The notes under the pieces: generated by a model | The model's input: the letters and a program-made list of their open reading frames with translations, nothing else | Databases searched by the model: none | What the model was told of the DNA's origin: nothing | In this document: piece by piece, positions 21,486 to 23,783 of the stretch | Position numbering within the stretch: the first letter of the stretch is position 1 | Layout of the letters: every line of letters begins with the position of its first letter | Translations under genes and position numbers: made by a program | NCBI GenBank assembly: GCA_016929775.1 | Contig: JAFGIE010000094.1 | Location: 1-23,947, forward strand | Reading direction: 5' to 3' | DNA length: 23,947 nt | From: Anaerolineae bacterium | GTDB taxonomy: Bacteria; Chloroflexota; Anaerolineae; JAFGEY01

Positions 21486-21514
21486 ATTCTACCTGAAGCG
21501 CGTGCAAGATGCAA
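21486..21514 (-). promoter_or_regulatory. Promoter of the DUF362 gene
   Basis: Minus strand: TTGCAT (21514-21509), 17 bases, TAGAAT (21491-21486). Leader to the ATG at 21429 about 50 bases. Confidence 0.65.
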
Positions 21515-21572
21515 GTCAACAACCTTGTCTTTGGGTGCACCCGTCTCTGTGTGGCAGCCAGGGGCCCGGTTG

Positions 21573-21581
21573 TGATATACT
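21573..21581 (+). promoter_or_regulatory. Possible extended -10 promoter for the 21620 gene
   Basis: TGATATACT (21573-21581) is an extended -10 with hexamer TATACT. The -35 is poor. It lies downstream of an apparent earlier ATG (21509), supporting the later start at 21620. Confidence 0.4.
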
Positions 21582-21619
21582 TGACTGGGCAATGGGTAGG
21601 CGAGGACCGATCGGTGGGC

Positions 21620-22318
21620 ATGCAGCCGGGACGAACGCATACGAAACGGGGTCGCAGGGCAAAGGCTGAACGGCAGAGCGACCACGCGCTGAACGGGTCA
21701 CTCGGGGCGATCGGTGTGCCCTGGGGTGAGGGGGCGCGCCAATTGACCGTCCAGCGCCTACTCCTCGGCGCCTCGACGTGGGCGCCGTTCGTGGCATGGG
21801 TCGCCTGGCTCCTCCTGGATGTGCGTCTCGACCTGGATCCCTGGATAGCCGGCGTGGGCGTCGCCGTCCTCGTCGCCCTGTGGGCCATCGCGGCGAGAAC
21901 GCGTGTAGGAGATGGGCTGTGGCCGATGCTCGGCGCCGCCGCTGTCGTGTTTGCGGTCTCCTACTCGGTTGCCGCGCGTTCGGCAAAGGTAGGCGGCTTT
22001 ATCGTGGTCAGCACGCTCGGTTGGACGCTCGCCAACAGCGTGCGCGGAGCGTTGGTCTCTGTATGGGCTGCCGATCTGGTAGGCGTACACAGCTACGCGC
22101 AGGTCGAGGATTCGATGCTGCGCAACGTCATGCTCGGCGAGACGGCGTTGATGACCGCGATCGCGGTTGGGCGCACCGGCAACGAGCTCGGCGGCACAGC
22201 GGTCGCCGTCCTCCTCGGTTTGCTGGTCGGCGGGATCCTGTCGTGGTTTGTCTTTGCCCTGGTCTACTGGGTTATGAACGTCGCGCTCAGCCTGGCGTAT
22301 CGAGAGGAGGCAGGGTGA
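21620..22318 (+). CDS. Polytopic membrane protein of unknown function
   Basis: 232 residues from ATG 21620 (a GTG six bases earlier is an alternative); GGTGGG is the only nearby ribosome-like site. A basic N-terminus (RTHTKRGRRAKAERQ) of about 50 residues precedes five or so hydrophobic segments: around VQRLLLGASTWAPFVAWVAW, AGVGVAVLVALWAIAA, WPMLGAAAVVFAVSYSVA, GFIVVSTLGWTLA and, last, VAVLLGLLVGGILSWFVFAL with YWVMNVALSLAY. The positive N-terminus suggests a cytoplasmic start. A soluble loop (SYAQVEDSMLRNVMLGET) lies between helices. I do not recognise the family. Its TGA overlaps the GTG of a possible small ORF, and a second membrane protein follows 112 bases later, probably on the same message. 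Confidence 0.75.
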   Translation: MQPGRTHTKRGRRAKAERQSDHALNGSLGAIGVPWGEGARQLTVQRLLLGASTWAPFVAWVAWLLLDVRLDLDPWIAGVGVAVLVALWAIAARTRVGDGLWPMLGAAAVVFAVSYSVAARSAKVGGFIVVSTLGWTLANSVRGALVSVWAADLVGVHSYAQVEDSMLRNVMLGETALMTAIAVGRTGNELGGTAVAVLLGLLVGGILSWFVFALVYWVMNVALSLAYREEAG

Positions 22319-22430: not shown

Positions 22431-22796
22431 ATGGGCGTGGCTCTAGTACCGGTGGTAGCGATCGGCGCATTCGTCGTCTTTGGCGCCGGCTACCTGCTGA
22501 CTTGGGGGCTGCTCGTGGTTGGCGAACGGCTCTACATGCGCACTCAGAAGCCAGAGAAGGTCGTGGTGCTGCTGTCGGGCGAGACCGAAAAAGAGCCGAG
22601 GCGGCTGACAGAGAGAGCCAAGGAGAATCTTGCCAGGGCGGGGGGCGTGGCGTCGATCGCGCTCGTCGTGCTGCTGATGGTCCTTGTCCCGCGCTGGGCG
22701 GTCTGGATCTGGCTGGGGTTGATGGGACTGGGCTACCTGGGTGCGTTCGTCGTGTGGATGCTACAGCTCTCGCAGAGGCCCCGCTCGAGGCGGTAA
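22431..22796 (+). CDS. Small membrane protein, three hydrophobic segments
   Basis: 121 residues from ATG 22431 with GGAGGAG at 22414-22420. An N-terminal helix (about residues 4-30, VALVPVVAIGAFVVFGAGYL region) is followed by a charged cytoplasmic-type loop (PEKVVVLLSGETEKEPRRLT). Two more helices lie at about 72-87 (ASIALVVLLMVLVP) and 90-112 (VWIWLGLMGLGYLGAFVVWM). The tail is basic (SQRPRSRR). No family recognised. It ends the plus-strand membrane pair and faces msrA, with 131 bases between their stops. Probably works with the preceding membrane protein, but only by position. Confidence 0.75.
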   Translation: MGVALVPVVAIGAFVVFGAGYLLTWGLLVVGERLYMRTQKPEKVVVLLSGETEKEPRRLTERAKENLARAGGVASIALVVLLMVLVPRWAVWIWLGLMGLGYLGAFVVWMLQLSQRPRSRR

Positions 22797-22927: not shown

Positions 22928-23761
22928 TCAGTCCAGGACGATCGGGCACTGCGTGCCGGTCTCTTGCGTGCGCAGCCCAAAGCGGCTGAGCAGGCGCTCG
23001 CGCAGCTCGGCTGACAGCCCCAGGCTCTCGATCTCGGCTTTGACCTGCTCCCGCGTACCATAGCCTCCCAGGTAGCCGTTGATCCGCGCCGCGGCGGTCG
23101 AGGCGATCAGGTCTCCCGTTTCGGGATAGATCGCCGCCAGCTCGCCGTAGTAGGCGGCTTGCGAGCGCAGGTACCACTTTTGGTGATAGTCCTCCGCCAG
23201 GTAGAACTCGCCCGCCGGCAAGACCTCGGTGGTCAGCGGGTCGTCGTGCGCTGCGGCGACCTGGTCGCGCGCCTCCAGGGCAAGCCGCTTCTGTTCCTCG
23301 TCGTGGTAGAACACTGCTTCCATGTACTGCCGCGAGTACCAGCCCCCCGTCGGGTCGTGGCTGCGCCAGAAGACCTCGAGCAGCTCAGCGTACGTGATCT
23401 GCCGCGGGTCAAAGTCGATCTGGACCGATTCGGTGTGGTCGCCAATGCTGCGGTAGGTGGGATCGGGCAGTGCGCCCCCCGTGTACCCCACGCGCGTGCG
23501 GACCACGCCGGGCAGGCTCCCAAACTGGGAGTCCACGCCCCAGAATCAGCCCATGGCAAAGGTTGCCGTCTCGATTTCGGTTGGTTGTGCGGCGTCGATC
23601 GGCGGCACTGGGCGCGCGCCCGGTGCCGTGCTGGTCGGTGCCTCACCCGCGAAGGCGCCGCTCCAGCGCACGATCCCGAACGCCACCGCTGCGAGGACCG
23701 CAAGGGCGAGACTGGCGATCGCTGCCACGCTCCCCGCCGTCACGTGTCGGACTTGGTCCAT
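22928..23761 (-). CDS. msrA: Selenocysteine-containing peptide methionine sulfoxide reductase A (UGA-encoded Sec72)
   Basis: 277 residues if the TGA at 23548-23546 is read as selenocysteine. MsrA reduces methionine-S-sulfoxide in proteins. The open frame from ATG 23761 (GGAGT upstream) runs ETATFAMG, then TGA, then FWGVDSQFG in the same frame: the catalytic GCFWG motif with Cys replaced by the TGA codon. The rest is intact MsrA: VRTRVGYTGG, IGDHTESVQIDFDP, FWRSHDPT, QYMEAVFYHDEEQ and EFYLAEDYHQKWYLR. It ends at a normal TGA (22930-22928). Residues 11-32 are a hydrophobic signal anchor, so the enzyme should lie outside the cytoplasmic membrane, followed by a Pro/Ala linker. The only cysteine is Cys272, a likely resolving residue. 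The GDHTESV form recalls the MsrA branch that includes plant MSRA5. A hairpin after the UGA fits a bacterial SECIS. selA/B/C/D must be elsewhere; a point mutation or read error is the alternative. Confidence 0.88.
23515..23548 (-). promoter_or_regulatory. Candidate bacterial SECIS element of msrA, including the Sec UGA
   Basis: In the mRNA, UGA (23548-23546) is followed by a stem GG-(A bulge)-CUCCCA (23534-23526), loop GUU (23525-23523) and UGGGAG-CC (23522-23515). Eight pairs with one bulged A, a 3-base loop starting with G, and 20 bases from UGA to the loop. These match the published general rules for bacterial SECIS elements (loop within about 16-37 bases of UGA, G in the first loop positions), by hand folding only. 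Confidence 0.7.
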
Positions 23762-23783
23762 CGTCTGCACTCCGAGTGTTCGG

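Follow-up and report, generated by a model that had tools for sequence, protein, structure and literature searches.

Background

Selenocysteine (Sec)-containing methionine sulfoxide reductase A (MsrA) is one of the listed prokaryotic selenoprotein families (available parts of PMC13188914, PMC2398784 and PMC9312934). The closest described enzyme is that of Clostridium oremlandii (CoMsrA), which according to the available part of PMC4479559 has 209 residues and no Cys, belongs to the 1-Cys type and is reduced by glutaredoxin, the activity of the native Sec protein exceeding that of the Cys form about 20-fold. Reading of UGA as Sec in bacteria is associated with a hairpin (bSECIS), for which the model in the available part of PMC13188914 gives a loop of 3–9 nt with a G among its first two positions, a stem of 4–16 bp and a spacing of 16–37 nt. 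A 2006 count, given as a table row in the available part of its source, lists three selenoproteins for Chloroflexi, unnamed there. Here we describe an msrA gene, very probably of this kind, from an Anaerolineae bacterium; the whole stretch of 23,947 nucleotides that was analysed is referred to as the window.

An msrA frame with UGA at the catalytic codon

The following features were identified at the msrA locus, with UGA read as Sec in the translation:

22928..23761, minus strand: msrA gene, predicted Sec-containing peptide-methionine (S)-S-oxide reductase, 277 residues
23546..23548, minus strand: UGA codon of the predicted Sec72, at the catalytic position in GUFWG
22930-22928, minus strand: stop codon TGA of msrA
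23770..23773, minus strand: RBS-like GGAG, 8 nt before the ATG at 23761 (read by eye from the sequence)
23150..23569, minus strand: MsrA catalytic domain PF01625, residues 65–204 (Pfam, 5.1e-44)
23009..23110, minus strand: MsrA_helical domain PF20939, residues 218–251 (Pfam, 1.3e-6; 28.6 bits, cut-off 23.7)

The initial annotation had joined two open frames across the sequence TGA TTC TGG GGC into one MsrA, and on re-reading the sequence its coordinates proved exact: the minus-strand frame runs from 23761 to 23549, through the TGA at 23548-23546 and TTC TGG GGC, and from a GTG at 23536 to the stop codon, with no other break. Both Pfam domains are found on the joined product, and U72 lies in the context FAMG-U-FWG inside the PF01625 match, exactly at the position of the catalytic Cys, as had been claimed. 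The feature by which a selenoprotein MsrA is recognized, a UGA in frame at the catalytic position (GUFWG), is present. The single Cys that had been noted near the C-terminus, Cys272, is the sole Cys of the read-through product.

Conservation of the UGA codon among relatives

Relatives were collected from one genome per species in a scan of 84,980 species; at least 567 were confirmed and the best 80 were analysed. At the codon corresponding to residue 72, these best 80 have TGA in 73 cases, TGC in four and TGT in two, with one sequence uncovered at the site, and the proposed comparison of relatives at this codon has thereby revealed the alternation of Cys and UGA that a selenoprotein would display. 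Sec rather than Cys is the usual state in this set (73 versus 6), across many phyla.

A second search covered 396 genomes sampled from the class of genome G002, recorded as Chloroflexi bacterium; the same class includes G007 and G009, both recorded as Anaerolineae bacterium. MsrA of the window type (E 1e-40 or better) was found in 26 of the 396, with TGA at the site in 24, TGC in one (L094) and one match (L100) starting after the site. As these genomes overlap in part with the best-80 set, both were combined: 106 covered sequences, including the window and a paralog from genome G017 (L112), less four duplicates give 102 distinct sequences, 94 with TGA and eight with Cys, L112 being a distant paralog (42% identity) among the latter. 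One gene, represented by L069 and L100, is uncovered at the site and stands outside these counts. Judging by record names, at least ten phyla contribute TGA copies. A maximum-likelihood tree obtained with a quick procedure has low resolution (46 of its 99 inner branches open, with a very long branch for L112); on it the Sec/Cys label changes at least six times, two of these changes being forced by starred branches; shuffled labels average 7.8 changes, so the label is mildly clustered.

Downstream of the UGA the frame remains open for 160 to 221 residues in the 94 distinct TGA genes, in contrast to the decay of the downstream frame that had been named as a sign against a selenoprotein. Since TGA occupies this codon in so many of the best relatives and the frame stays open behind it, the UGA-interrupted MsrA frame is a confirmed observation beyond chance. 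A pseudogene, in which a Cys-type msrA would have acquired a nonsense mutation, might be suspected from an in-frame stop in a single metagenome contig, and one relative does carry a frameshift near the site; but random nonsense mutations would not repeatedly strike the catalytic codon, the frames behind it are long and open, and we regard this explanation as highly improbable.

The relative with the frameshift (L069:5100-5240, the same gene as L100, from genome G009) has kept the TGA, and its frame is shifted a few codons further on, within the SECIS region, which represents either an assembly error or early decay. A second stop inside the stretch aligned to the window MsrA was observed in L007, L024, L043, L082 and L105; L007 is the shortest case, with a further TGA early on that ends the frame 160 residues after the site.

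A conserved stem-loop following the UGA

Shortly downstream of the UGA a hairpin could be identified:

23517..23531, minus strand: bSECIS-like upper stem-loop CUCCCA-GUU-UGGGAG, 6-bp stem, GUU loop starting 20 nt past the UGA
23510..23540, minus strand: extended predicted hairpin around the stem-loop, its lower stem absent from the RNAalifold consensus of 94 sequences

With a spacing of 20 nt, a 6-bp stem and a 3-nt loop with G in first position, this hairpin falls within the published bSECIS model. The 40 nt from the UGA fold with -21.5 kcal/mol (z -3.26), and none of 200 shuffles was equally stable; longer stretches fold less remarkably (60 nt, z -1.87; 47 nt without the UGA, z -1.08). For the window alone, the 18-nt fold has a p of 0.02 in its own synonymous null, in which the chance of core stem plus GU loop is 0.10.

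Of the 94 TGA genes, 75 possess four core pairs together with the GU loop, compared to 4.6 expected from 300 synonymous redraws per gene, as does one of the eight Cys genes (0.2 expected); as the criterion was shaped after the window fold and the alignment had been seen, and the redraws ignore kinship, these figures give an effect size and not a probability. Some part of the criterion fails in 19 of the 94 TGA genes. The GU loop alone is found in 93 of the 94 TGA genes and three of the eight Cys genes. Codon 79, seven past the UGA, is CGG in 56 TGA genes, CAG in 37 and CGT in one, and CTG, CGC, CTC or GTC in the Cys genes.

The stem also shows paired changes. In the alignment of the 94 TGA genes, 90.8% of the pairing cells are paired (80.3% when shuffled), 63 cells have changed on both sides (23.1 when shuffled) and covariation scores 0.313 (0.145 when shuffled), values which none of 500 shuffles reached. 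The other two of the five covariation measures did not rise above the shuffles (pairs with changes on both sides, 3 versus 3.0; further pair types, 8 versus 8.1). Sliding the partner by one to three columns lowers pairing to 25–63%, and RNAalifold recovers the same stem from the 94 sequences with no structure supplied. The first base of the codon for residue 78 (Ser/Ala) and that of codon 82 form U-A in 51 genes, G-C in 23 and U-G in three, and are unpaired in 17. Rfam contained no family that matched the window at gathering score, with one chance-level match near the site. A hairpin maintained by paired changes also speaks against a pseudogene.

One TGC-containing MsrA, L004 from a Dehalococcoidia genome (G012), still has the core stem and the GU loop, and looks like a recent switch from Sec to Cys.

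Annotation of homologous proteins

Among 120 listed homologs, the residue at the site is C in 76, W in 25 and R in one, and 18 begin after residue 72; these residues cannot serve as Sec/Cys counts, since a U may appear as C or W in the source entries. The 18 late-starting proteins include the top four, the first of which (P0002) is the protein of the window itself or identical to it. They were seen as protein entries, and their start is as expected if their genes also have TGA at the site. The initial annotation's expectation that ordinary annotation shortens such a gene agrees with these entries, and the family provides an example of a repair enzyme that gene finders can lose, with 18 homologs called from after the site and 25 carrying Trp among the 120 listed. 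A plasmid search gave 28 matches, of which the 20 listed span 7–8% of the query with 68–69% identity, most being annotated as msrA.

Trp is found at the catalytic position of P0006, P0007, P0009 and 22 other listed homologs, again seen as protein entries, and most likely reflects UGA read as Trp by the gene caller of the source. The same Trp residues could be taken to indicate a genome-wide reassignment of UGA to Trp or Gly. This we consider the most remote of the alternatives: the window msrA itself terminates with TGA, as do 29 of the 94 TGA genes, the eight other frames of the window that were compared with Pfam match their families under table 11, and the catalytic position requires the chemistry of Cys or Sec.

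A sequencing or assembly error that turned TGC or TGT into TGA would likewise mimic a selenoprotein gene. However, the window possesses the core stem and GU loop that are missing in seven of the eight Cys genes, and the 18 homologs called from after the site behave as if they had TGA too; an error is therefore very unlikely.

Selenocysteine machinery in related genomes

Genes selA, selB, selC and selD were searched in the genomes of relatives. Of the best PNPase homologs of the window among those listed, the closest apart from its own has 89% identity, and one with 80% is named Anaerolineae bacterium; by this one protein the window appears Anaerolineae-like. The nearest of the 396 class genomes as judged by PNPase is G017 (80% identity, the next having 69%), which encodes SelB (301.9 bits, over cut-off), SelD (371 bits) and a tRNA-Sec (69.7 bits; called tRNA-SeC with anticodon tca by ARAGORN), while its SelA match comprises 147 of 455 positions, is cut by a contig end and lies below cut-off. 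A window-type MsrA was not found in G017, the one genome searched from its family, its only match at E 1e-10 being the Cys paralog of 42% identity.

The selD gene of G017 (L115:1501-2436, minus strand) has one in-frame UGA (AAG-U-AAK, residue 19 of the translated stretch), at what we take to be the usual Sec/Cys site of SelD. This SelD is likely a second selenoprotein in the nearest relative.

As a discriminator of MsrA-bearing genomes the Sec machinery had to be rejected. SelB exceeds its cut-off in 21 of the 26 genomes with window-type MsrA and in 17 of 20 without it, the latter being the first non-matching genomes in order (G016 to G035). For tRNA-Sec of at least 60 bits the numbers are 19 of 26 and 17 of 20, using a line chosen after the scores had been seen; the gathering score of 47 is passed by 40 of the 46 genomes, and several of the weaker matches of 47–53 bits are taken for other tRNAs. 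Because SelB and tRNA-Sec are common throughout the class, their presence alone says little. Either SelB over cut-off or tRNA-Sec of at least 60 bits is found in 25 of the 26 MsrA-bearing genomes (15 both, six SelB only, four tRNA only). Both are lacking in one genome, G299, which also has the only MsrA with TGC at the site among the 26; this agreement concerns a single genome and depends on the 60-bit line, as the best tRNA-Sec match of G299 (50.6 bits) exceeds the gathering score. SelB or a strong tRNA-Sec is likewise present in 17 of the 20 class genomes without this MsrA.

The initial annotation's reading of the gene as a genuine selenoprotein is supported by these data: because Cys and TGA alternate at the site, a bSECIS-like hairpin with paired changes follows it, the nearest searched genome has Sec machinery and the frames of relatives remain open, the window gene is very probably a genuine selenoprotein of a known kind and not a pseudogene. 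Its description as a hidden selenoprotein holds for annotation, but not for knowledge, since the GUFWG MsrA family is already known (available parts of PMC13188914 and PMC4479559).

Domain structure, N-terminal segment and C-terminal tail

PF20939 is described in Pfam as "Selenoprotein methionine sulfoxide reductase A, helical domain", and the window MsrA also matches TIGR00401 (134.4 bits, cut-off 108.1). The AlphaFold2 model has a mean pLDDT of 86.4, with high values across residues 51–260 and low confidence at the N-terminus and in the final 17 residues. CoMsrA is the best PDB match both by sequence (9.1e-59) and by fold (Foldseek, TM 0.88 by target length), and the seven best PDB matches are all CoMsrA chains; in entry 7c13, the depositor's title of which mentions glutaredoxin, chain A is MsrA by sequence match. 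Two further features lie outside the well-modelled core:

23669..23728, minus strand: hydrophobic N-terminal segment, residues about 12–31, maximal 19-mer Kyte-Doolittle score 2.58, modelled as a helix over residues 12–25 with low pLDDT
22946..22948, minus strand: Cys272 codon, C-terminal tail QCPIVLD, candidate resolving Cys, tail pLDDT 54–58

The hydrophobic segment is likely a membrane anchor or signal. A hydrophobic 19-mer (Kyte-Doolittle of at least 1.6) precedes the UGA in 54 of the 94 TGA genes, a number that may be high as start codons were set mechanically, and such a segment is also present in three of the eight Cys genes. A Cys-Pro tail occurs in 15 of the 94 TGA genes, and 22 have at least one Cys among their final 15 residues; the model places the tail, and with it Cys272 relative to Sec72, at low confidence. 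Together, the membrane-like segment and the Cys-Pro tail suggest an enzyme located outside the cytoplasm, possibly with a resolving Cys.

We propose the following mechanism. SelB with Sec-tRNA-Sec would bind the hairpin just past the UGA, and Sec would be put in at residue 72 in place of termination. The selenolate would attack the sulfoxide of methionine-S-sulfoxide, releasing methionine and forming a selenenic acid. This acid could then be reduced by a separate thiol protein, the role of glutaredoxin in the case of CoMsrA, or initially by Cys272 in the enzyme's own tail. The N-terminal segment would probably tether the enzyme to the outer face of the membrane. The frame, the UGA at the catalytic site, the hairpin, the conservation and the Sec machinery of the nearest searched genome are read from sequence, whereas the insertion of Sec in this organism, the chemistry, the electron donor and the location are inferred. 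That the gene encodes a genuine selenoprotein MsrA with Sec at residue 72 is very probable.

A more specific version, in which the membrane-anchored, outward-facing enzyme resolves its selenenic acid as a selenenylsulfide with the Cys-Pro tail ("Sec plus tail Cys" type), is offered tentatively on the basis of sequence features. If true, such an MsrA would be unlike the 1-Cys Clostridium enzyme and would require an extracytoplasmic thiol donor. Also plausible, albeit short of an even chance, is a cytoplasmic Sec-MsrA whose translation truly starts after the hydrophobic segment and in which Cys272 has no role. A hydrophobic 19-mer is lacking before the site in 40 of the 94 TGA genes, a C-terminal Cys is found in only the 22 mentioned, and the Clostridium enzyme has no Cys and works with glutaredoxin (available part of PMC4479559). 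On the other hand, the GGAG motif lies 8 nt upstream of the ATG at 23761, the window segment scores 2.58 and a hydrophobic segment recurs in more than half of the TGA genes, and the Cys-Pro tail recurs as well. If the hydrophobic N-termini mean export, Sec-MsrAs would repair oxidised methionines on surface proteins.

Gene neighbourhood

No constant gene partner was found at the 57 loci with enough flank among the 73 TGA loci of L001-L080. Neighbour clusters included MsrB-like genes at five of the 57 loci and sensor-kinase-like genes at six, these names being read from sequence alone. In L038 an MsrB-like frame with a signal-like N-terminus, likewise identified by its sequence, lies directly upstream of the Sec-MsrA, and in L086 and L090 MsrB-like sequence continues in frame into MsrA. 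In the window, two hydrophobic-looking frames adjoin msrA (21509-22318 and 22431-22796, both plus strand), neither with an NCBIfam match.

Comparison with known MsrA systems

No paper that combines methionine sulfoxide reductase, selenocysteine and Anaerolineae was found in full texts covering few subscription papers, and none of the titles listed concerned a Sec-MsrA from Chloroflexota or a bacterial Sec-MsrA that is exported. The string "Chloroflex-" is absent from the available main texts of the searched papers on prokaryotic selenoproteins (PMC13188914, PMC2398784 and PMC9312934 among them). The window MsrA is very probably a known kind of selenoprotein, of the Clostridium oremlandii MsrA type, in a lineage for which no printed report was found in the literature searched.

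The E. coli and bovine 3-Cys MsrAs and the bacterial 2-Cys MsrAs share the MsrA fold and catalytic domain with the window protein, but their catalytic residue is Cys rather than Sec, and they have one or two Cys that resolve. With the prokaryotic "methionine sulfoxide reductase A" selenoprotein family (PF01625, GUFWG/H), as described in the available part of PMC13188914, the window protein has the motif, the Pfam family and the bSECIS model in common, and shows no defining difference. CoMsrA (PDB 4lwj, 4lwk and 4u66) has Sec at the catalytic site, as predicted for the window MsrA, and shares the combination of an MsrA domain with a C-terminal helical domain; compared to this enzyme, the window MsrA has in addition the hydrophobic N-terminal segment and Cys272 in its tail.
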